Part shown: piece by piece, positions 12 to 39,130 of the stretch | Position numbering within the stretch: position 1 is the stretch's first letter | Layout of the letters: every line of letters begins with the position of its first letter | From: Alphaproteobacteria bacterium | GTDB taxonomy: Bacteria > Pseudomonadota > Alphaproteobacteria > Micavibrionales > Micavibrionaceae | Reading direction: 5' to 3' | Assembly: GCA_021775915.1 (NCBI GenBank) | Contig: JAJFGW010000001.1 | Location: 1-54,968, forward strand | DNA length: 54,968 bases | Program-made: the position numbers and the translations under genes | Notes under the pieces: generated by a model | Databases searched by the model: none | Told to the model about the DNA's origin: nothing | Seen by the model: only the letters and a program-made list of their open reading frames with translations

Positions 12-1133
12 ATGACAGCGATCGTGATCAGTGGAACAGGGCTTTACACGCCGCCTCATTCAATAAGCAATGAGGAGTTGGTAACATCGTATAATTCCTA
101 TGTTGATATCTATAACCAAAATCACAGTGTTGCTATTACAAGTGGAGAGGTTCCGGCGCTTGAATATTCCAGTGTAGAATTTGTGCAGAAGGCCTCCGGT
201 ATTAATGCTCGTTATGTTGTGGAGAAAGAAGGTATTCTTAACCCGAACGTTATGGCACCGCGCATTCCTGAACGTGCCAATGATGAAATTTCCGTACTTG
301 CCGAAATGGCTGTTAACGCGGCCAAGGGGGCTTTAGAGGCCGCCGGAAAGACGCCGCAGGATGTTGATGCGGTACTGGTCGCTTGTTCCAATCTACAGCG
401 CCCTTACCCTGCCATTGCCGTTGAGGTGCAGGACGCGCTGGGTATTGATGGCTTTGGCTTTGACATGAATGTGGCTTGTTCGTCCGCTACCTTTGGTCTT
501 CAGACTGCCGCTGCTATGATAGAGGCCGGAAATGCGCGCTCTATCCTTGTTGTGAACCCGGAAATTTGCTCCGGCCATTTGAATTTTCGTAATCGTGACT
601 GCCATTTTATTTTCGGTGATGTGGCGACAGCCGTTCTTTTGGAGCGGGCGGAAACAAGCACGGGGCCAAATGCATTCGAAATTGTGGGGACAAAATTAAA
701 GACCGAGTTTTCAAATAATATCCGTAATAATTTTGGCTTTCTAAACAGCGCCGCGCCGGAAGGCAAAGACAGCGCGGATAAACTTTTCGTACAGGAAGGG
801 CGTAAAGTATTTCGGGAAGTTACGCCCATGGTTTCCGATCTTATTCTGGAACATATGGGCGAGCAGAATATTGGTTCGGAGGACATTAAGCGGCTCTGGC
901 TTCATCAGGCCAATATTCATATGAATGACATGATTGGTAAAAAGGTGTTAGGGCGTACGCCGGAAGGTAACGAAGCACCGGTTATTCTGGACGAATATGC
1001 GAACACTAGCTCCGCCGGGTCGATCATAGCGTTTCACAAATATAGTGCTGACCTTGAATCAGGCGATCTTGGTATTATCTGCTCTTTTGGTGCCGGGTAT
1101 TCTATTGGTTCTGTGATTGTGCGCGCCCTTTAA
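12..1133 (+). CDS. beta-ketoacyl-ACP synthase III family protein (long KAS III variant)
   Basis: This 373-residue thiolase-fold enzyme is expected to condense an acyl-CoA or acyl primer with malonyl-ACP in the cytoplasm. The KAS III triad is visible: Cys156 in NVACSSATFG, His298 in LWLHQAN and Asn331 in YANTSSAGS, plus a glycine-rich C-terminus (CSFGAGYSIGSV). At 373 residues it is longer than E. coli FabH (317). The extra length lies mainly in the N-terminal 90 residues, as in the longer FabH-like class of Vibrio and Xanthomonas. The start has an AGGGAGAA ribosome site at bases 1-8. Its 3' end overlaps the convergent SET gene by 32 bases. Whether it serves bulk fatty acid synthesis or a special pathway with the nearby acyl-CoA ligase cannot be told from sequence. 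Confidence 0.9.
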   Translation: MTAIVISGTGLYTPPHSISNEELVTSYNSYVDIYNQNHSVAITSGEVPALEYSSVEFVQKASGINARYVVEKEGILNPNVMAPRIPERANDEISVLAEMAVNAAKGALEAAGKTPQDVDAVLVACSNLQRPYPAIAVEVQDALGIDGFGFDMNVACSSATFGLQTAAAMIEAGNARSILVVNPEICSGHLNFRNRDCHFIFGDVATAVLLERAETSTGPNAFEIVGTKLKTEFSNNIRNNFGFLNSAAPEGKDSADKLFVQEGRKVFREVTPMVSDLILEHMGEQNIGSEDIKRLWLHQANIHMNDMIGKKVLGRTPEGNEAPVILDEYANTSSAGSIIAFHKYSADLESGDLGIICSFGAGYSIGSVIVRAL

Positions 1134-1623
1134 TGGGACCTTTACATTTTTGGCTACCACATTGACATTCAAACTTTCGATATAGCTCGTCTTCTGTTGT
1201 CTCATAATCCATTGTGAGATAATCACCGGTCGCGATTGGTTTGATTGCCGTGAAAGTTAATGTCTTCATGTCGCAAATTAAATTAGGGTCGCAAGAGTGC
1301 AAAACTTTTCCCATGACGAACGGGTCTTCAACATATAGACCGGATGATTTCTGAAGTGTGAATAATGTTTGTTCGTTTAAAAAAGCGCCGAAAAATTTGA
1401 AGGCAACTTGTCCCGAATTTATATGAACCAGCGAGATCAGCCCTTCACCTTTGGCGTCACTCTGTACAACTTCCATACGGTCCCGTGTTGGCTCTCCTTC
1501 AAAAGGAGCGCATAAATCTTTATAAAAACGATTATTCTCATAGCTTTTAATATTAATATTAGCCGGTGTGTGGGGATCGTTACCGGGGCTAACAATTTCC
1601 TGTTCTTTAAGAATTTTTTTCAT
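1102..1623 (-). CDS. small SET-domain protein with post-SET cysteine cluster (putative protein lysine methyltransferase)
   Basis: The 173-residue protein has the marks of a SET methyltransferase, which moves methyl groups from AdoMet to protein lysines. KGEG at 58-61 begins the fold. LHSCDPN (108-114) corresponds to the pseudoknot motif NHSCxPN with the first Asn replaced by Leu. GDYLTMDYE (133-141) holds the likely catalytic Tyr140. CQCGSQKC (153-160) is a post-SET zinc cluster, C-x-C-x4-C, probably completed by Cys111. About 55 N-terminal residues are unlike anything I recognise. It is the last gene of the minus-strand operon, 5 bases after the SpeD-like gene, with an AAGGAAG ribosome site. 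Substrate unknown; a non-histone target such as a ribosomal or DNA-binding protein is possible. SET assignment is firm from the motifs; activity is inferred. Confidence 0.85.
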   Translation of the reverse strand: MKKILKEQEIVSPGNDPHTPANINIKSYENNRFYKDLCAPFEGEPTRDRMEVVQSDAKGEGLISLVHINSGQVAFKFFGAFLNEQTLFTLQKSSGLYVEDPFVMGKVLHSCDPNLICDMKTLTFTAIKPIATGDYLTMDYETTEDELYRKFECQCGSQKCKGPIKGRAQSQNQ

Positions 1624-1628
1624 AATGA

Positions 1629-2039
1629 CTACTTCCTTAAAACGATTTGGTAAGTGACATCTTTGGGGTTAAAAGTCTTTCTCACATGATCTCTAACCGT
1701 TTGTTCATCAAACCATTTACAGCTAAACACATCAAGATACAGATCACGGGCCGCATCATTTGTGTGGACGGTTAAGGCGCTGGTTGTAATCAACTGAACA
1801 GCGGACAAACCGACCTCTATGCCTTCACCAAATCGCGCAATAATAGGCTCGCCATAGCGAACCATATCAATTTCATCGGCCAGATCTTTGAGGAAATTTC
1901 CCATTGTATCAATGTCAGTCAAACTTTCATTGCAGTTCTCGCAGGTCAGCATCATGTGCTTGCCGTAGTATTTAATGCCGTTTACTTCGATGTTTTTATA
2001 ATCCGGCGGAGCTATGTTTTTATAAGCGAGTGCAGTCAT
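1629..2039 (-). CDS. S-adenosylmethionine decarboxylase (SpeD-like) family protein
   Basis: The 136-residue protein matches the small prokaryotic AdoMet decarboxylases, pyruvoyl enzymes made by self-cleavage. The block TTSALTVHT (85-93) followed by DVFSC (103-107) aligns with the Thermotoga SpeD block around its cleavage serine, giving Ser87 as pyruvoyl precursor, His92 as processing residue and Cys107 as proton donor. Two departures stand out. Thr86 precedes Ser87 where Glu or Lys is usual, and HTND replaces the usual HT[WY]PE. The N-terminus has CENCNES (33-39) in place of the usual short start. No spermidine synthase gene lies nearby. It sits between the amidase (14 bases upstream) and the SET gene (5 bases downstream). 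Some members of this family use arginine or ornithine instead of AdoMet, so the substrate is open. Confidence 0.75.
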   Translation of the reverse strand: MTALAYKNIAPPDYKNIEVNGIKYYGKHMMLTCENCNESLTDIDTMGNFLKDLADEIDMVRYGEPIIARFGEGIEVGLSAVQLITTSALTVHTNDAARDLYLDVFSCKWFDEQTVRDHVRKTFNPKDVTYQIVLRK

Positions 2040-2053
2040 TTAAATTTTCCCTG

Positions 2054-3469
2054 TTAAGCAACTTTTTTATTTTCGTATTCGGAAAGTAAGGATTTGAAGG
2101 CAAGCTCCTGTTCCAGTCTGTAAGAGGCCTGCATTACGAGTTCGTCATTTAGGTAATTGCCCATAAGCTGCACGCCTGCGGGCATGCCGTCTTTTGTTAT
2201 GCCGCAAGGCAGTGACGCCGCCGGACATTTTGTAAGGTTGGCGATAAATGTAAAGGGCGTCCAGTATAGTTGTGGGTTTCCGCTTTCATCAATGAACTCA
2301 TTCTGCCCAACGTCAAAGGCGGTCATGGCCATTGTCGGCAGTATAATTAAATCATATTTCGTGAATATCGATTTGATTTTGTTGCATATGACCATGCGCT
2401 CTACTTCTGCATTCATATATTCATCAAGCGTAAGTTTTTCGCCGCGTTCACAAAAAGACAATAAGTAAGGGTCCATTTTGTCGTGGTCTTTTTCAGGAAT
2501 TTGTTTTTTTATCCAGGACGCAATCGCCATCCAGTGCTTGTCAAAAACGTCAATCAGGCTTGGCAGAGAAAGAGAAATTTCTTCAACATCAGAAAATCCG
2601 TCCATCTTGTCCGCGGCTGTTTTTAGAAAAGAAGCAATTTCCGGATCAACAGAGACATCGTTAATTGTGGGGACATAGGCCACTTTCATTTTTGTAGGCA
2701 GGATTTTAAGGTTCTCGAATGAGCAACATTGTGAATGTGGCGGCGCGTTCCAGTTTGTTGGTTCAGGCTCTGTAATGACATCGAGCATTAAGGATGCATC
2801 TTCCACCGTTTTTGCAATCGGGCCAAGTGTGGAGATTGTTGAAAATGGCGCAGGCTGTGTCTCAGGCACCGTTCCCGTGCTTGGTTTGATGCCAAAAACG
2901 CCGCAAAAACTTGAAGGAATACGGATAGAGCCGCCGCCATCACTGCCCAAATGAAGTAAGCCCATATGGGTTGCTGCCGCCACCGCCGCGCCGCCTGATG
3001 AGCCGCCTGAGGTTTTGTCCTTATTCCACGGGTTTCTTGTAATGCCGGTGACAAGGCTGTCCGTTACGCCCTTATGGCCGAATTCAGGCGTTGTTGTTTT
3101 GCCAATAAATAAAGCACCGGCCTTGCGTAACCTTGTAACACAAGGCGAGTCACTTTCTGCGGGAGCATCTGATGTGGTGAGAGAGCCGTGTCTGGTCGCC
3201 CAGCCTTTGACCTCTGTTTCATCCTTAATGGATGTGGGGAGGCCGTCCAGCCGTCCCATAGGCTTGCCTTCAAACCATCTCTGTTCGGATAGTTTTGCTT
3301 GTTTTAAACAATCGCCTTCGTCTGCAATAAGGTTATAGGCGTTATATGTCGGATTGTGCTCTTCTATTTTCCTGAATGATGCTTTTACGACATCAACAGG
3401 TGAGAGCTCTTTTCCTTCGTACAGCTTCAAAATTTTAGAAGCAGATAAGTTTAAAATATCATCGACCAT
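2054..3469 (-). CDS. amidase (amidase-signature family)
   Basis: A 471-residue amidase-signature hydrolase that cleaves a carboxamide with a Ser-cisSer-Lys triad. Lys82 is in PTSIKDE, the cis-Ser is Ser157 in TSGGSSGGAA, and the nucleophile Ser181 lies in SDGGGSIRIPSS. It is full length for the family and has no signal peptide, so it is cytoplasmic. Lack of GatB/GatC neighbours and overall divergence argue against GatA of the tRNA amidotransferase. It is the third gene of the operon: the GNAT gene ends 9 bases upstream and the SpeD-like gene begins 14 bases downstream. Its leader carries AGGTTCGTT just before ATG, the same 9 bases as before the lipoprotein gene that starts at 17701. The substrate is unknown; the context suggests an acylated amine. 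Confidence 0.88.
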   Translation of the reverse strand: MVDDILNLSASKILKLYEGKELSPVDVVKASFRKIEEHNPTYNAYNLIADEGDCLKQAKLSEQRWFEGKPMGRLDGLPTSIKDETEVKGWATRHGSLTTSDAPAESDSPCVTRLRKAGALFIGKTTTPEFGHKGVTDSLVTGITRNPWNKDKTSGGSSGGAAVAAATHMGLLHLGSDGGGSIRIPSSFCGVFGIKPSTGTVPETQPAPFSTISTLGPIAKTVEDASLMLDVITEPEPTNWNAPPHSQCCSFENLKILPTKMKVAYVPTINDVSVDPEIASFLKTAADKMDGFSDVEEISLSLPSLIDVFDKHWMAIASWIKKQIPEKDHDKMDPYLLSFCERGEKLTLDEYMNAEVERMVICNKIKSIFTKYDLIILPTMAMTAFDVGQNEFIDESGNPQLYWTPFTFIANLTKCPAASLPCGITKDGMPAGVQLMGNYLNDELVMQASYRLEQELAFKSLLSEYENKKVA

Positions 3470-3478
3470 AACGAACCT

Positions 3479-4174
3479 TTATAGAGATGGTTTATGGGGG
3501 TTGTCATTTGAAGGTGGCGGCAAAATAAAAGATTTTTTATCATTAGCACGCTTCTCATAGAATGTCTCTTTGTCCAAAAACATAATCATATATTTTCTGC
3601 GTCCGTGATTGGTGTCAAACTCAATATCTTTCCCGGTATATTGATAGCCCTCACTGTAGGCAACGGCCAAAGACGGTTTGTTGCCAGCCTCAATTGTTGC
3701 ATTGAGTCTTGTTATATTACAATCGTCAAAAGCATGTTTCATAATGTTTATAGCGGCTTCCCTGCCATACCCTTTGTTTTGAATGTCGGGGTCTATAAAG
3801 AAATTTGGTTCTATAACAACTGTGCCGTCGTGGTATGTGACTGTCTCGAGGGACACAAAGCCAACAAGCTTGCCGTCATCCTTTGTTTCTACCGCCAGCA
3901 TAATATTATCACGTTGTCCGGTTTTTGGATTTGGCTCCTGATTCTCAATGGATTTTTGGATAAAGGACTTAACCGAGTCCATTGTTCCGTCGAAATAATG
4001 AAATTCAAAATTATTTTTCTGTGTGATCTTATATACAGCATCAGCGTCATCGTCATCGTCTCTAAACTCCCGCAAAACCAGACGCGGCGTTTCTATTGTA
4101 ACGAGATGCTTGCTTTTTGCTTCTTCCTGATCGGCGCTGTCAAAAAACTTTTTGAATAAGTTTCTAATGAGCAT
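3479..4174 (-). CDS. GNAT-family N-acetyltransferase (RimJ/RimL-like)
   Basis: A 231-residue acetyltransferase of the Acetyltransf_3 type. ETPRLVLREF (about 29-38) is the usual opening strand. QNKGYGREA is the acetyl-CoA pyrophosphate-binding Q-x-x-G-x-G/A loop. The block NPS/NKPS-like (NKPSLAVAYSEGY) is the helix-alpha4 motif of RimJ/RimL relatives. About 25 extra residues precede the domain and a 25-residue charged tail follows it. Members of this family acetylate protein N-termini, antibiotics or small amines, and I cannot choose between them. It lies 35 bases downstream of the fadD-like gene, and the leader shares a 16-base block with the alternative-oxidase leader, which may mean a second promoter inside the operon. 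Confidence 0.85.
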   Translation of the reverse strand: MLIRNLFKKFFDSADQEEAKSKHLVTIETPRLVLREFRDDDDDADAVYKITQKNNFEFHYFDGTMDSVKSFIQKSIENQEPNPKTGQRDNIMLAVETKDDGKLVGFVSLETVTYHDGTVVIEPNFFIDPDIQNKGYGREAAINIMKHAFDDCNITRLNATIEAGNKPSLAVAYSEGYQYTGKDIEFDTNHGRRKYMIMFLDKETFYEKRANDKKSFILPPPSNDNPHKPSL

Positions 4175-4184
4175 GTTTGTTCTC

Positions 4185-4200
4185 TCTGTTCGTTTTTTAT
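4185..4200 (-). repeat. 16-base leader block shared with the alternative-oxidase gene
   Basis: Read on the minus strand this is ATAAAAAACGAACAGA, ending 10 bases before the GNAT start codon. The identical 16 bases occur on the plus strand at 5988-6003, 15 bases before the alternative-oxidase start. The ATAAAAA part could be a -10 region. Function is inferred only from position and identity. Confidence 0.5.
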
Positions 4201-4209
4201 GCCTGTTAT

Positions 4210-5880
4210 TCAGGCTTTTGTTATGCCTTCTTCTTCCAGCAGCAATTTGCGTGAAAGTTTACCCACGGCTGTTTTAGGAAGAGGTGCGTTCCGCAAAATT
4301 ATTTTGCGTGGAATTTCAATCGGTGAAATTTTGTCGGCTAGAAATGATTTGATTTCTTCTTCGGTAAGGTTTTTCCCATCAAGAGGTTTTATCCACGCCC
4401 AAACTGTTTCGCCGCGCTCTTCGTCCGGTACACCGGCAACGATGCATTCTTCAACGGCATCATGCAGGTAAATCGCTTCTTCTATTTGTGTCGGGTAAAC
4501 ATTATAACCACGCACCAGAATAATATCTTTCAGGCGGTCAACCAGATGGATATAGCCTTCCTCATCGATATACCCAATGTCGCCGGTATAAAGCAGGCCG
4601 TCGCGAATAGTTTCGGCGGTGGCGTCCGGCTGGTTGTAATAGCCCTTCATGATTTGCGGCCCGCGTACGCAAACTTCACCTTTTTCGCCGAGAGGAAGGA
4701 CTGTTTTCTTGTCTTCCATATCGATGATTTCAACGATGGTTCCGGGGATAGGTACGCCAATAGAACCGACTTTAATTTCGCCTTTCATTGGGTTGCAAGT
4801 CACAACCGGCGCGGCTTCTGTTAGCCCGTACCCTTCACCGACCTTAGTGCCGGTTCTGTTTTCAAAAGCTTGCTTTACGCCGCCGGGCAGCGGTGCACCG
4901 CCGGACATGCATATTTTTATAAAGGACAGATCTAGCCCTTCCGATGCCGGATGGCTGGCGATGGCATTGTAAATAGCCGGAACAGCCGGGAACAGGGTTG
5001 GCTTCTTTGCCTTTAAAAGCGTCACCATTTGTTCCGGATCAAATTTTGGCACCACAATAATCTCCATGCCGAGTTTAAGGGCAAGATTCATGACCGCTGT
5101 CATGGCAAACACATGAAAAAGAGGCAGGACACAAATAATCCGGTCTTGCCCCGGTTCCGTTACCGGCGCATGCCAAAGCTCCATTTGCACGGTATTGGCA
5201 TAAAGATTGGCATGAGTCAGCATCGCGCCTTTGGGAACGCCTGTGGTGCCGCCGGTATATTGCAGGACGGCGATGTCTTCATTGGAGTTGATTTCTACCG
5301 CTTCATAGCTGCCGTTATTGTTAATAATATCTTCGTAGGAAATATAAGAGTCACCTTCCGGTAAGGGCTTTGTGTCTCCTGTTGCCGGGCAAATAATCAA
5401 GCCTTTGAGGCGTGTTTCAGCCATAACATTGCCTGCTTTTTCAAAAAGCGCTGCTGCGTTTAAGGTCACAAGGAAATCGGTTTCACTGTCTTCGATCTGG
5501 CTAACAAGCTCGCGCTCAACATAAAGCGGATTGTAATTCACGACTGTGCCGCCGGCTTTTAAAATACCGTAATAAAAAGCAATGCTGTAAGGCGTGTTGG
5601 GCAAAAACAAACCAACTTTTATGCCCTTTTTGACGCCCCGCTTTTGCAGCCCTGCTGCAATTTTTGAAACCAGAGCGCCGAGTGCGCTGTAATCAAGCCG
5701 CATGCCTTCAAAATCAATCGCAGGACGGTCTGCAAACCTGGCAACGGCCTGATCGAGAATATGAGGGATAGGCGCTGTTTCAATCGCTGTGTTCCAGACT
5801 TGTCCTGCCGGATATTGCTCTTCCCATATATGGTCTGTTGTAAAAGGGCTTTCTACGGACACAGTTGCGCTGCTTTGCAT
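4210..5880 (-). CDS. fadD: long-chain fatty acid-CoA ligase (FadD-like)
   Basis: This 556-residue adenylate-forming ligase activates fatty acids to acyl-CoA with ATP. Motifs in order are the P-loop YTGGTTGVPKGA, the adenine-binding GYGLTEAAPV, the hinge region YTGDIGYIDEEGY followed by VDRLKDIILVRGYNVYP (FadD signature), and the C-terminal catalytic lysine in PKTAVGKLSRK. I place the start at 5880 (MQSSATVS...) because AGGGAGAA lies 8 bases upstream; the reading frame stays open 17 codons further without a ribosome site. It heads the five-gene minus-strand operon and diverges from the alternative oxidase. It is the right size for FadD; the exact chain-length preference cannot be read from sequence. 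Confidence 0.92.
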   Translation of the reverse strand: MQSSATVSVESPFTTDHIWEEQYPAGQVWNTAIETAPIPHILDQAVARFADRPAIDFEGMRLDYSALGALVSKIAAGLQKRGVKKGIKVGLFLPNTPYSIAFYYGILKAGGTVVNYNPLYVERELVSQIEDSETDFLVTLNAAALFEKAGNVMAETRLKGLIICPATGDTKPLPEGDSYISYEDIINNNGSYEAVEINSNEDIAVLQYTGGTTGVPKGAMLTHANLYANTVQMELWHAPVTEPGQDRIICVLPLFHVFAMTAVMNLALKLGMEIIVVPKFDPEQMVTLLKAKKPTLFPAVPAIYNAIASHPASEGLDLSFIKICMSGGAPLPGGVKQAFENRTGTKVGEGYGLTEAAPVVTCNPMKGEIKVGSIGVPIPGTIVEIIDMEDKKTVLPLGEKGEVCVRGPQIMKGYYNQPDATAETIRDGLLYTGDIGYIDEEGYIHLVDRLKDIILVRGYNVYPTQIEEAIYLHDAVEECIVAGVPDEERGETVWAWIKPLDGKNLTEEEIKSFLADKISPIEIPRKIILRNAPLPKTAVGKLSRKLLLEEEGITKA

Positions 5881-6018
5881 GACGATATTCTCCCTGTAAC
5901 GTTTTTTTATTATTGCTATTAGGAATATCACTCCCCGGTTGATTTAAAAAGGCATAAATGCGAAAATCAGAAAAAAGTAAGACGACTATAAAAAACGAAC
6001 AGAACAGGGAATATCACA
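5881..6018. promoter_or_regulatory. divergent leader region of the fadD operon and alternative oxidase
   Basis: The two outward leaders resemble each other. Minus strand 5910 to 5881 reads ATAAAAAAACG, then ACAGGGA, then ATATC before the fadD start. Plus strand 5988 to 6014 reads ATAAAAAACG, then ACAGGGA, then ATATC before the oxidase start. The ACAGGGA parts are ribosome sites. The similarity suggests a duplicated or co-regulated promoter, but no convincing -35 box is seen. Confidence 0.5.
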
Positions 6019-6714
6019 ATGACAAAAAAATCAGCATTACCTGATGATATAAAGCTGCGCCATGAAACGCAGGTTGAGCATCCTATTAACTGGAATCATG
6101 AAAAAGAAGGCCTGTCAGATTATTTTGCGCAGGCCGCCGTTGATGTTATGGGCTTTTTCGGCGATTTATTTTTCAAGAATCGTTATGACCATAAGGTCAT
6201 TGTTTTGGAAACTGTTGCGGCTGTGCCGGGCATGGTTGCGGCGATGTTTAATCACTTAAGCAGTCTGCGGAAAATGAAGCATGATAGCGGGCGGATCAGG
6301 GTTTTGATGGACGAGGCAGAAAATGAGCGTATGCATCTTATGACGTTTCTCGAGATTGCCAAGCCGTCACTATTGGAAAGGGCGCTTATAAGCGGTGCGC
6401 AGGCCGGGTTTTTTGTGGCTTATTCCCTTGCTTATATCGTTGACCCTCGGACGGCTCATCGCTTTGTAGGGTTTATCGAGGAGAGGGCGATTGAAAGCTA
6501 TAACGATTATCTGAAAGCTGTGGATGAAGGCCGGGTCGAAAATGTCGATGCGCCGGAGATTGCCAAGAAATACTGGAACCTGCCGGATGATGCCAAATTG
6601 CGCGATGTCATTATTGCTGTGCGTGATGATGAAGCAGAGCACCGTGATGTTAATCACGCTCTTGCGGATCAACTTGATGCGAAAAGGCAGAGCGTGGATT
6701 TAAAGCTGGCTTAG
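6019..6714 (+). CDS. alternative oxidase (cyanide-insensitive ubiquinol oxidase)
   Basis: A 231-residue membrane-bound diiron protein that passes electrons from ubiquinol to oxygen without pumping protons. The six-ligand pattern is complete: Glu64 in LETVAAVPG, Glu103 and His106 in ENERMH, Glu154/155 in FIEERA, and Glu205 and His208 in DEAEHRDVNH. Two hydrophobic helices (about 60-78 and 123-141) are the monotopic membrane anchor typical of the family. It is short at the N-terminus compared with plant and fungal enzymes, as in other alphaproteobacterial members. The gene diverges from the fadD operon and has an ACAGGGA ribosome site. A bypass oxidase fits an organism exposed to cyanide, nitric oxide or sulfide, or one with surplus reducing power; this is inference. 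Confidence 0.95.
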   Translation: MTKKSALPDDIKLRHETQVEHPINWNHEKEGLSDYFAQAAVDVMGFFGDLFFKNRYDHKVIVLETVAAVPGMVAAMFNHLSSLRKMKHDSGRIRVLMDEAENERMHLMTFLEIAKPSLLERALISGAQAGFFVAYSLAYIVDPRTAHRFVGFIEERAIESYNDYLKAVDEGRVENVDAPEIAKKYWNLPDDAKLRDVIIAVRDDEAEHRDVNHALADQLDAKRQSVDLKLA

Positions 6715-10452: not shown

Positions 10453-11013
10453 ATGTCTATAGGCAAAAAGTTGGGTGATTTGGCCGTGATGGCGACGGCA
10501 ATTTTCGCTTTCGGTTTTTCTGGCGGTGATGCTGCGGCACAAGGCATGAAAAACTTCGGGGGCGGTGAAAGGAAACCGGCTGCGCGTTGTTATATAGAAG
10601 TTACAAAAAACGGTAAACCTGTTGGTATTGTGCTTGACCTACACCGTAGAGATGGTGGCGTTATCATGCCGGGTAACAGTGGTCGACGGGGGTATGGTGG
10701 AAATACGGCAAGTGACGCTGCTATTAAAGGAACCACAGATAGTACCGGTATAAAAATCGCGGCGATCAGCGATCAGCCCATCAATGACTCGAAAGACTGG
10801 GATACAGTTAAAATATTTCATTGTGTACCGAATGTATCTCCTGAGTACGATATTTTGAAACAAAGCTTTCAAGGCGCCACTTTTGTTGCCGACCCTGATA
10901 CGGGGAGAACTCTTGAGCGTGAGATAAAGGATCTTAGTCCTCAATATGAAGCGGACATTGCAATCTGGCAAAGCCTTTACCCTTACTCTCTGCCGCAACG
11001 GCAACCGAAATAA
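10453..11013 (+). CDS. secreted protein of unknown function, paralogue A
   Basis: I do not recognise this 186-residue protein. It has a signal peptide (hydrophobic core about 9-23, cleavage near DAAAQ) and two cysteines, in ARCYIEV and IFHCVPN, likely joined by a disulfide in the periplasm. Shared with the next gene are ARCYI.VT.NG, G.V.D.H...G.IMPG.SGR.GY.G.TA, VKIF.C.P...EYD.LK.SF, and a C-terminal repeat of V/ADPDTG. The AAGGGG ribosome site is 8 bases before ATG. The two genes are 34-40 bases apart and lie in one transcription unit behind the promoter with an inverted repeat. They are a recent tandem duplication. Confidence 0.85.
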   Translation: MSIGKKLGDLAVMATAIFAFGFSGGDAAAQGMKNFGGGERKPAARCYIEVTKNGKPVGIVLDLHRRDGGVIMPGNSGRRGYGGNTASDAAIKGTTDSTGIKIAAISDQPINDSKDWDTVKIFHCVPNVSPEYDILKQSFQGATFVADPDTGRTLEREIKDLSPQYEADIAIWQSLYPYSLPQRQPK

Positions 11014-11053
11014 AGAAATTTTAGAAAACCATTAAATTAAGGGAGTTATGAAT

Positions 11054-11581
11054 ATGTTTGTAAGCAAAAAAATAGGTAGTCTGGCCGTGATGGCGACGGC
11101 GCTTTTCACTTTTGGTTTTTCCGGTGATGTGGCTGCGCAAGGCAAGCATTTTGAAGGCCATGAAAAGAAATCGGCGGCGCGGTGCTATATACCGGTGACG
11201 CAAAATGGCGAAGAAATAGGTGTTGTGCTGGATCGCCATAGTAAGGGCGGCGCTATTATGCCGGGAGCCAGTGGTCGTCACGGTTACAATGGTGGTACGG
11301 CACAAGAAGCCGCGGTTGATGCAACTGAAGACTGGACGGGCGTGAAAATCGGAGCGGTCAGTGAAAACCCTATCTATCAAGACAGATTTGTTAAAATATT
11401 TAATTGCACGCCGGCAGACTCTTCTGAATATGATGTTCTGAAGAAAAGCTTTAAAATGAAGGGTGTTTTTGTTGCTAACCCTGATACAGGACAGGCTCCC
11501 GATGGCCAGAAAGTGGATATTACGCCGCGTTATGATGGAGATGACAAAGCGTGGAAGAGTCTCTTCCCGCAGCCAAAATAA
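11054..11581 (+). CDS. secreted protein of unknown function, paralogue B
   Basis: Second member of the tandem pair, 175 residues from the ATG at 11054. That ATG is preferred over the one at 11048 because GGGAG at 11041-11045 is 8 bases away instead of 2, and because the protein then aligns with paralogue A at its first residue. Signal peptide cleavage is expected near DVAAQ. The two cysteines (ARCYIPV and IFNCTPA) and the IMPGASGRHGY block are conserved with paralogue A, while the tail differs and is shorter. Function unknown; likely periplasmic or secreted. The gene converges on the PKMT-like methyltransferase with no space between them. Confidence 0.85.
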   Translation: MFVSKKIGSLAVMATALFTFGFSGDVAAQGKHFEGHEKKSAARCYIPVTQNGEEIGVVLDRHSKGGAIMPGASGRHGYNGGTAQEAAVDATEDWTGVKIGAVSENPIYQDRFVKIFNCTPADSSEYDVLKKSFKMKGVFVANPDTGQAPDGQKVDITPRYDGDDKAWKSLFPQPK

Positions 11582-37358: not shown

Positions 37359-37907
37359 ATGTCAGCGCTTAGAAGTATGCAGCCGGAGGATATAGGGCTT
37401 TTGATTGGCCTTCCTTATCGCGTTGGGGTTTGGATGAGTCATTCTGATGACGAGGATGGTGAAGGCGATGATATTCGTGAAATGAAGGCCTTAGAACATA
37501 TTATTAAATCCATTGCCCGTGTTCATGAGCAATCTGAATTTGTGCAGGAAGTGGCGCGGCTGACCTTAAGTAAAAAAGACAGGTGGCCGGTTTGGGCGGA
37601 CCATTCTTTTGATATTCTGTCTGATTGTGAAAAGGCCGTTTCTGTCCTTAAAAGTAACGTCAATGACAATGACCTGAAGGATTACCGGAAGACGCTTATT
37701 AGTATTGCGGAGACTGTTGCGGCGGCTTATGGCGAGTTCGGCATGGGTGCCGGTGACGATGAGAATATTCTGAAGGGCTTTCTTGGCAAGGTTACAAGCA
37801 AGCTAAAAGGTGAAGCGCAGGCCGCCGATTTTATGAATATAAGCCCGGCTGAGGGTGAGGCTCTGGAACGTTTGAAGGCGGCGTTGCACTTTGATGACGA
37901 TAAATGA
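37359..37907 (+). CDS. unknown protein, tandem paralogue 1 of 3
   Basis: A 182-residue, acidic, mostly helical cytoplasmic protein that I cannot assign. It shares with the next two genes an N-terminal block LLIGLPYRVGVWMS followed by an Asp/Glu/Gly-rich loop, a middle block SEFVQEVARLTL..KDRW..W, C-A/KAV, a DYRKTLISIAETVAAAYGEF block, and a C-terminal ISPAEGEALERLKAAL. No signal peptide or membrane segment is seen. AAGGAGGATGAGG lies immediately before the ATG, and the gene follows sucD by 16 bases. It is the most diverged of the three. Confidence 0.82.
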   Translation: MSALRSMQPEDIGLLIGLPYRVGVWMSHSDDEDGEGDDIREMKALEHIIKSIARVHEQSEFVQEVARLTLSKKDRWPVWADHSFDILSDCEKAVSVLKSNVNDNDLKDYRKTLISIAETVAAAYGEFGMGAGDDENILKGFLGKVTSKLKGEAQAADFMNISPAEGEALERLKAALHFDDDK

Positions 37908-37963
37908 TTCCAATTGGTCACGATCCGGTCTAGAATGGACGGAGACGAAGAAAGGATCCCCTT

Positions 37964-38557
37964 TTGCCTTATCTTGAGAGTTTTACAGAAGAACAGCGCT
38001 CTTTGCTTGTGTCGCTTCCTTACCGGGCCGGTTTGTGGGTGAGTGAAAGCGATGAGGACGGCGGTGATGACGCTGATGAAGCTGAGATGCATGCGCTGGA
38101 ATGCATTATTACGGGTTACTCCGAAGATTTCTTAAAGTCAGAATTTGTTGAAGAAGTAATGCTGGAAACGCTTGCTCATAAAGACAGATGGAAAGACTGG
38201 AGCGCCGGGCTGGATAATGTGCCCGAACAGTGCGCGCGGGCTGTTGATGCTTTGAATCAGCACATGGAGTCAAAAGAGGTGTTGTCCTTCAGGCAAACCT
38301 TGATGGATATTGCACGGGCCGTGGCCATGGCTTATCGCGAGTTTGATGAGGACGAAGCGTTGCCGGATAAAATAAAAAAATATTCCCGATATTATTGCGG
38401 TCGTTTTAGCGCTTATTTGAAAAAAGAGCAGCCTCCTACTTTGGATGAAGTATTGAATATTAGTAAGGCGGAGCAGGCGACGTTGGTGGCGCTTTCAAAG
38501 GCTCTACAACTTGATTTGGAAGGTAACCCCGTAGACGGCAGCGCGGCTGCGGCTTAG
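37964..38557 (+). CDS. unknown protein, tandem paralogue 2 of 3
   Basis: The second copy is 197 residues long and begins with TTG (MPYLESFTEEQ); AAAGGA lies about 7 bases upstream. Conserved features are LLVSLPYRAGLWVS followed by an acidic loop (ESDEDGGDDADEAE), SEFVEEVMLETLAHKDRWKDW, a Cys in PEQCARAV, and AVAMAYREFDE, then a C-terminal VLNISKAEQATLVALSKAL. The tail adds an Ala-rich end. It is 56 bases from copy 1 and 18 bases from copy 3. The acidic loop could bind a metal or a basic partner, but nothing confirms this. Confidence 0.82.
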   Translation: MPYLESFTEEQRSLLVSLPYRAGLWVSESDEDGGDDADEAEMHALECIITGYSEDFLKSEFVEEVMLETLAHKDRWKDWSAGLDNVPEQCARAVDALNQHMESKEVLSFRQTLMDIARAVAMAYREFDEDEALPDKIKKYSRYYCGRFSAYLKKEQPPTLDEVLNISKAEQATLVALSKALQLDLEGNPVDGSAAAA

Positions 38558-38575
38558 AAGAAGAGGACGATCGCT

Positions 38576-39130
38576 ATGGCATTTCTGGAGCAGTTTTCTG
38601 ATGAAGAGAGGGAGCTTCTTATCTCTCTTCCTTATCGCGCCGGTCTGTGGGTGAGTAGTGTGGATGATACCGGCGGTGCCAAGGCTGATTATGAAGAGCT
38701 CGATGAGCTTGAAAGCATTGTTGTTGAAAAAGCTAGCGGTATGTTTGAATCGGCGTTTGTGCATGAAGTCATGGCCGAAACCTGCACAAGGCAGCAGGAC
38801 TGGAAAAAATGGGCGGAAGGGCTCGATGCTGTACCGAATGATTGCAAGAAGGCTATCGCTATTATTTCCGGTAAGCTGGCAGAAAAAGACATTGATGCTT
38901 TTAGGGCTAATGTGATGTCTATTAGCCTGAGCGTTGCGAAAGCTTTTCGCGAGTTTGATGATGGTGCATCAATGCCGGTTAAACTTTTCACGCAAATAAG
39001 ATTGTTTTTGGAAGCCGTTATGCGCTTTTTAAAGAGAGATAAATCCTATGACACGGAGAGTGTTTTGAACATCAGTTATGAGGAAGATGTCGCGCTGTCT
39101 ATGCTTTCCAAAGCATTGCATGATGTATGA
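38576..39130 (+). CDS. unknown protein, tandem paralogue 3 of 3
   Basis: The third copy is 184 residues with an AGAGGA ribosome site. It is closest to copy 2: LLISLPYRAGLWVSS, DDTGGAKADYEELDELESI, SAFVHEVMAETC, LDAVPNDCKKAI, SVAKAFREFDDG and VLNISYEEDVALSMLSKAL. Two positions stay constant in all three copies: the LPYR.G.W.S segment and the Cys after the middle Trp-x-x-Trp block. It ends 108 bases before sucA. The persistence of three intact copies within the TCA cluster argues for a used function. Confidence 0.82.
   Translation: MAFLEQFSDEERELLISLPYRAGLWVSSVDDTGGAKADYEELDELESIVVEKASGMFESAFVHEVMAETCTRQQDWKKWAEGLDAVPNDCKKAIAIISGKLAEKDIDAFRANVMSISLSVAKAFREFDDGASMPVKLFTQIRLFLEAVMRFLKRDKSYDTESVLNISYEEDVALSMLSKALHDV

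Follow-up and report, generated by a model that had tools for sequence, protein, structure and literature searches.

A SpeD-like gene beside a BurB-like SET gene: a probable two-gene route from methionine to a sulfonium amine

Which reactions are encoded by a row of five closely spaced genes at the start of an alphaproteobacterial contig, and do all five belong to one pathway? The window considered here is the whole of a 54,968-nucleotide stretch of DNA from a member of the Micavibrionaceae (assembly GCA_021775915.1, contig JAJFGW010000001.1, positions 1 to 54,968), and the row is a minus-strand unit for an acyl-CoA ligase, a GNAT acetyltransferase, an amidase, a SpeD-like protein and a SET-domain protein. 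A first-pass annotation read the unit as an operon for the synthesis or turnover of an acylated amine, perhaps linked to methylation of a protein. The answer proposed here is that the SpeD-like and SET genes probably constitute a module of two genes by which methionine is converted, via S-methylmethionine, to a sulfonium amine. It builds on genes, homologies and folds established by computation, on the recurrent pairing of the two genes, on a distinct clade of SpeD proteins and on searches that found no canonical spermidine synthase.

The SET and SpeD-like proteins

The SET gene (1102-1623, minus strand) encodes 173 residues with a SET domain that scores 24 bits in Pfam (cut-off 22.4). Its nearest sequence in the PDB is BurB (E 8.7e-21), and a profile of six SpeD-linked SET proteins finds BurB with E 1.1e-42 and the next family, ASH1L, with about 1e-10. 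The AlphaFold2 model of the window protein, built from 14 sequences with a mean predicted local distance difference test score (pLDDT) of 82, matches BurB in complex with S-methylmethionine and S-adenosylmethionine (SAM) with Z 20.1 (root mean square deviation 2.2, 144 aligned residues) and BurB with methionine with Z 18.7, while Z is 12.6 for the next family, which is again ASH1L. By a wide margin in sequence as well as in fold, the SET protein is nearest to BurB. In excerpts of PMC7496086 and PMC12542666, BurB converts free methionine to S-methylmethionine in vitro, and this is the first step of dimethylsulfoniopropionate (DMSP) synthesis in Burkholderia thailandensis. The SET protein of the window is predicted to be a BurB-like methionine S-methyltransferase, which would use SAM to convert methionine to S-methylmethionine.

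The window protein and BurB also have a short motif in common, Thr-Glu-Asp (TED; residues 143-145, positions 1189-1197, minus strand), which in the window protein follows the SET tyrosine, Tyr124, at a short distance; the combination was picked from the present alignment and not taken from the BurB papers. The complete motif is found in 16 of 21 aligned BurB-like rows, BurB included and the cut-off protein of locus L057 not counted, and in none of six generic SET proteins. The BurB-like rows in which it is incomplete are L143, L054, L043, L044 and L048.

The SpeD-like gene (1629-2039, minus strand) encodes 136 residues of the AdoMet_dc family (PF02675, 57.6 bits, cut-off 25), and its product is predicted to be a pyruvoyl-dependent S-methylmethionine decarboxylase with the fold of SAM decarboxylase (AdoMetDC). 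The model of the protein (mean pLDDT 90) superimposes on the class 1b AdoMetDC of Thermotoga maritima (1vr7) with Z 17.2 and a root mean square deviation of 1.6 over 111 aligned residues, at 25% identity in the structural alignment. Not only the fold but also the catalytic serine, histidine and cysteine are alike: by alignment, Ser87 (1779-1781) is equivalent to the pyruvoyl-forming Ser63 of the T. maritima enzyme, His92 to the processing His68, and Cys107 (1719-1721) to the catalytic Cys83, all three read from the minus strand. His92 is the first residue of a His-Thr-Asn-Asp stretch (1755-1766, minus strand) that carries part of a clade signature, H[TS]ND.

This signature is seen when SpeDs that are linked to SET genes are compared with those that are not. 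In T. maritima numbering, the nine distinct SET-linked SpeDs have Ala (seven) or Gln (two) at position 64, Thr (seven) or Ser (two) at position 69, and Asn70 and Asp71 in every case, so that their signature reads TS[AQ]...H[TS]ND. Among the remaining 109 SpeDs, the orphan L144 counted with them, Asn64 occurs in 80, Phe69 in 96, Asn70 in 6 and Asp71 in 54. The sample was gathered by likeness to the SET-linked proteins and comprised 186 loci with a SpeD match, from which 118 unique domains were retained, each with 95 residues or more and 25 bits or more. In their tree the nine SET-linked SpeDs and L144 make up a clade of 10 of the 118, which suggests, with modest support, that the SET-linked SpeDs form a clade of their own; no SET match was found in the available flanks of the other 108, which are limited, often by contig ends. 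A proline, at a position given in a figure only, is described in an excerpt of PMC10407285 as a mark of true AdoMetDC as opposed to ADC. The window protein has Asp at position 71, where the T. maritima enzyme has Pro, and two SpeDs fused to a spermidine-synthase-like domain (L034 and L035) are also without the proline. These fusions, read from translations, occur in two genomes of the class (L034:7237-8502 and L035:5113-6510). For the T. maritima structure itself, a literature search turned up no published pocket residues.

To see what the two proteins would do together, consider a molecule of free methionine. In the first step, by analogy with BurB, the SET protein would move a methyl group from SAM to its sulfur, so that S-methylmethionine is formed. 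The SpeD-like protein would cleave itself at Ser87 to generate a pyruvoyl group, and its substrate may be S-methylmethionine, a small relative of SAM in which a methyl group replaces the adenosyl group. In the second step, S-methylmethionine would be decarboxylated through a pyruvoyl Schiff base to 3-(dimethylsulfonio)propylamine (DMSP-amine) and CO2; we infer this step from the SpeD fold, the SET partner and the parallel with BurI, and the order of the reactions and the fate of the product are predicted as well. A pyruvoyl enzyme would in this way replace the unrelated, diaminopimelate-decarboxylase-like BurI or SMMDC, which depends on pyridoxal phosphate (PLP). General aminotransferases or oxidases, together with aldehyde dehydrogenases, may then convert DMSP-amine to DMSP; in an excerpt of PMC7496086, the product is reduced but not lost in B. 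thailandensis mutants of burD and burE. Alternatively, DMSP-amine may be N-acylated by the neighbouring GNAT protein, or it may serve, in phages above all, as a polyamine-like cation.

As a whole, the module would be a variation on a known pathway, with an enzyme activity that is possibly new. It shares with BurB-BurI-BurD-BurE of B. thailandensis and with MSMT-SMMDC of Streptomyces mobaraensis the coupling of a BurB-like SET gene to a gene for a decarboxylase and, by prediction, the chemistry from methionine via S-methylmethionine to DMSP-amine, but the decarboxylase is SpeD-like and pyruvoyl-dependent here, whereas it is diaminopimelate-decarboxylase-like and PLP-dependent there, and the window unit is without the aminotransferase, aldehyde dehydrogenase and polyketide synthase of the Bur route. 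SpeDA and SpeDC (PMC10407285, in excerpt) are likewise pyruvoyl enzymes of the AdoMetDC fold, with a substrate other than SAM that is known for them and proposed here; the window SpeD differs from them in its clade and signature, its SET partner and its proposed sulfonium amino acid substrate, and the same excerpt describes no SET-paired group of this kind among their homologues. The plant DMSP route of Spartina (MMT, SDC and DOX; PMC11464771, in excerpt) passes through the same intermediates with enzymes of other kinds: its methyltransferase is a plant one, its decarboxylase was assayed with PLP, and the third enzyme is an amine oxidase. In searches of an open-access library, neither a pyruvoyl or SpeD-type S-methylmethionine decarboxylase nor a SET-SpeD pair turned up.

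Recurrence of the pair and its PLP counterpart

As a check, the first-pass annotation had proposed to look for the SpeD-like and SET genes side by side in other genomes, and the two are adjacent at nine distinct loci, the window included. The others are an uncultured Alphaproteobacteria metagenome-assembled genome (MAG; L031, the same record as L053), with SpeD 54% and SET 51% identical to those of the window, an Eisenbacteria MAG (L055, genome G818), an Anaerolineae MAG with a broken SET frame (L057, genome G819), plasmid p7 of Rhizobium bangladeshense (L140) and the viral contigs L059, L060, L143 and L223, where a large terminase is recognised in L059 by reading and in L143 by PHROGs. SpeD precedes SET except in two of the nine loci, L140 and L223, where the order is reversed, and the two genes overlap by 4 bases in L031, L060 and L143. 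A separate origin of the reversed pairs is weakly supported in the SET tree (0.47), from which the incomplete L057 and L058 were left out, and it is therefore not claimed. Contig L145, with a SpeD identical to that of L143, was counted together with it; both were reached by a SpeD search, the same that gave L144, and their SET was shown afterwards, while L223 was reached by its SET and the SpeD shown afterwards.

A scan of genome contigs with a single SET sequence confirmed no relative, and an alignment of two sequences then gave six loci; a viral scan with query A1 confirmed none, and with query A3 only the two contigs already known. Against annotated phages, the viral SET of L060 had no match and the window SpeD one (32% identical); against plasmids, the window SpeD had three, one in Rhizobium (51%) and two in Leptospira (35%). 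In L060 and L143 the SET gene is followed by a PAPS-reductase/DUF3440 protein. In both phage contigs (L060:403-3930 and L143:1687-5233) genes for a ParB-like protein, SpeD, SET and this protein stand in one row, which in L143 ends, by reading, with a second ParB-like gene, and the SET proteins carry a C-terminal extension that matches nothing further in Pfam and nothing in PHROGs.

The SET type itself is rare. It occurs in 4 of 78 relatives and 9 of 385 genomes of the class (both at E 1e-8) and in 8 of 398 of the phylum (E 1e-12), the window genome counted each time; at 85 bits or more and with the window genome excluded, these become one relative (G013), three genomes of the class (G157, G293 and G382) and seven of the phylum. 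When SET profile matches of at least 85 bits are collected and duplicates merged, 24 distinct loci remain, and at 13 of them an amino-acid decarboxylase is fused or adjacent, a SpeD at nine and a PLP enzyme at four (L039, L042, L048 and L141). If the loci that came from SpeD searches (L059, L060 and L143) are set aside, the share is 10 of 21, and it becomes 9 of 20 when the window is set aside too. At the other 11 loci no decarboxylase was recognised among neighbours that were scanned in part, L058 being cut by a contig end.

In genome G013, of the window's own family, the PLP enzyme and the SET protein are a single fusion of 558 residues (L039:9411-11087; PF02784 and PF00278), and a BurB-like SET gene adjoins a PLP decarboxylase gene in G691 and on a Sphingomonas plasmid. 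The arrangement is similar in G460 with a more distant SET, and the SET of L048 falls outside the BurB-like clade of the SET tree. In G013 and G691 the PLP enzyme resembles diaminopimelate decarboxylase and scores below the lysA cut-off; of three candidate decarboxylases of plants in an excerpt of PMC11464771, the diaminopimelate type is nearest to SMMDC (27%) and BurI (24%). No SpeD was found in G013, as is expected if SpeD and PLP decarboxylases replace each other. Among the 11 loci where no decarboxylase was recognised, an aminotransferase and an aldehyde dehydrogenase follow SET (L139), an aldehyde dehydrogenase is present (L041), or a 2591-residue gene precedes SET (L043); a polyketide synthase, too, is once met beside the SET type, together with such an aminotransferase and aldehyde dehydrogenase. 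A methyltransferase of the NNMT/PNMT/TEMT family stands directly before the SET gene of L056 (7057-7932), and in four genomes (L044-L047) SET lies beside a gene of about 390-410 codons, whose 408-residue product in L044 has no match in Pfam, NCBIfam or the PDB.

Alternative readings and objections

The usual target of methylation by SET domains is the nitrogen of lysine. This speaks for an alternative in which the SET protein N-methylates an amine or amino acid, while the SpeD-like protein decarboxylates ornithine or arginine in the manner of SpeDC or SpeDA, and SpeD homologues of that kind are widespread, phages included (PMC10407285, in excerpt). The nearest relative of the SET protein is, however, an S-methyltransferase of methionine, and SETs akin to it stand with diaminopimelate-type PLP decarboxylases in the way that BurB goes with BurI; we consider this alternative unlikely. 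Four residues are named in PMC10407285 (in excerpt) as diagnostic of SpeDA and SpeDC, with positions that are given in its Figure 8 only.

It is similarly unlikely that the SpeD-like gene encodes an ordinary SAM decarboxylase for polyamine synthesis, with a SET neighbour that happens to use SAM too. Family, fold, and the processing and catalytic residues are those of such an enzyme, but its score is far below the cut-off of the AdoMetDC equivalog TIGR03330 in NCBIfam (33.2 bits against 75.65), and positions 64, 67, 69, 70 and 73 around His68 of the T. maritima enzyme, near the catalytic histidine, are changed. The N-domain of spermidine synthase (PF17284) was present in one of seven genomes searched, and of the four searched bacterial genomes with the pair it was not found in three: the window genome (G000), G818 and G819. 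In the fourth, G157, its neighbour is a different SpeD, which at 122 bits outscores the SET-linked SpeD of that genome (63 bits). PF01564 matched two proteins of the window genome (761 and 471 residues), which were read as membrane-spanning and in which the motifs that we take to be the usual catalytic ones of spermidine synthase were not seen, so that the searches of G000 with both families found no canonical spermidine synthase. A role as a spermidine enzyme is made unlikely by these results.

Equally hard to sustain is a single pathway of all five genes, in which the ligase would activate an acyl group, the GNAT protein would transfer it to DMSP-amine, and the amidase would hydrolyse the product. 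The three further genes, all on the minus strand, encode a long-chain-type, AMP-binding acyl-CoA ligase (4210-5880, from an ATG, with a mechanical open reading frame that opens upstream at GTG 5931), a GNAT acetyltransferase of 231 residues (3479-4174, Acetyltransf_3) and an amidase-signature enzyme of 471 residues (2054-3469, Amidase family). Their common strand and short gaps to the pair favour such a pathway, as does the nature of DMSP-amine, a primary amine that a GNAT protein could acylate. The pieces, though, occur apart. A GNAT gene followed by an amidase gene, 32% and 47% identical to those of the window, is found in G001 of the same genus (L245), a genome without a SET match at E 1e-8; GNAT relatives (E 1e-10) are found in 2 of 37 related genomes other than the window's. 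Ligase relatives occur in five genomes of the order, whose 11-17 kb of retrieved sequence contains none of the other four genes, and the window genome has a second ligase copy elsewhere (C31). Close relatives of the ligase, GNAT and amidase were not seen next to the pair in L031, L055, L057, L059 and L060 or in the annotation of L140, the loci that this search covered, L143 and L223 being left out. Since GNAT-amidase and ligase relatives thus occur without SpeD and SET, the unit looks like three pieces, ligase, GNAT-amidase and SpeD-SET, and a conserved five-gene operon was rejected. Two findings run against so clean a split: a weak ligase-like match (1e-13) on the opposite strand about 3 kb from the pair in L055, and in L058 (396-1994) a GNAT-carbon-nitrogen-hydrolase fusion that converges on a BurB-like SET gene, which would favour the five-gene pathway.

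That the SET protein is a protein lysine methyltransferase, acting on the SpeD-like or another protein, is highly improbable: its SET domain is above the Pfam cut-off and many histone methyltransferases match, but far more weakly than BurB, this SET type has decarboxylases of two unrelated kinds as partners, and it stands once beside the polyketide synthase, aminotransferase and aldehyde dehydrogenase mentioned above. A histone-type enzyme is made unlikely by profile and model matches that are led by BurB. Of the first-pass interpretation, then, the adjacency of the SpeD-like and SET genes holds elsewhere; the hinted methylation of a protein is unsupported because the closest SET relative acts on free methionine, and so is the acylated-amine pathway of five genes.

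Several findings weigh against the route from methionine to DMSP-amine. Of the residues by which BurB contacts SAM, Arg42, Ala44, His72 and His138 are Lys, Glu, Phe and Gln in the window protein, with His93 and Arg133 conserved; these six positions vary among BurB-like relatives too. Methionine is held in BurB through main-chain atoms (PMC12542666/PMC7496086, in excerpt), and its pocket is therefore unreadable from sequence. The SpeD clade has a local support of 0.79 under midpoint rooting, which is modest, and it includes L144 (52% identity), a SpeD with no adjacent SET. No decarboxylase was recognised beside three relatives that have SET only, namely L054 and L056, which fall within the SpeD-linked SET clade, and L058, which is cut by a contig end. 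The window unit, to which the search was limited, holds no aminotransferase or aldehyde dehydrogenase. PF17284 is just one domain of spermidine synthase, PF01564 was searched in the window genome alone, and incompleteness of the MAGs could hide the enzyme in G818 and G819.

The gene unit, its surroundings and the meaning of the module

The layout given by the first-pass annotation, five minus-strand genes with gaps of 5-35 bases opposite a ketosynthase gene, agrees with the open reading frame coordinates, and the gene families that it named are matched by Pfam and NCBIfam. From the ligase to SET the gaps are 35, 9, 14 and 5 bases, and cotranscription of the five genes is plausible from this spacing. 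A consensus scan of 900-6150 gave 10 promoter-like sites, against a mean of 9.4 (standard deviation 3.3) in shuffled sequence, which is chance level, and 9 terminator-like sites against 6.0 (2.8), which is near chance; with such counts the scan neither shows nor excludes one transcript. The convergent gene on the plus strand (12-1133), which overlaps the 3' end of the SET gene by 32 bases, encodes an ordinary beta-ketoacyl-ACP synthase III of PRK07515 type (636 bits, cut-off 304) and was judged to be outside the module. Divergent from the ligase gene lies a gene for an alternative oxidase (6019-6714; PF01786, 256 bits). Further along the window, translations show three similar tandem genes of 182-197 codons (37359-39130) and two similar, secreted-looking tandem proteins of 186 and 177 residues (10453-11581).

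Returning to the SpeD-SET module, we consider it about evenly balanced whether the pair represents a further neofunctionalised line of AdoMetDC, in which a pyruvoyl enzyme decarboxylates S-methylmethionine and a SET-type partner methylates methionine at the sulfur, occurring in Alphaproteobacteria, Eisenbacteria and Chloroflexota, on a plasmid and in phages. If it does, the pair would be a genetic marker for the synthesis of sulfonium amines, possibly DMSP, that has been overlooked because, in the annotations met, the SpeD-like gene is labelled SAM decarboxylase and the SET gene protein-lysine methyltransferase or hypothetical protein. The SpeD family would gain a new substrate, and one step of a pathway would be filled by two unrelated enzymes, SpeD and a PLP decarboxylase, in a non-homologous replacement. 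The route would also be carried by phages, which would make DMSP-amine with just two genes; as a small dication, this amine could behave like a polyamine towards packaged DNA, or it could feed the DMSP cycle.

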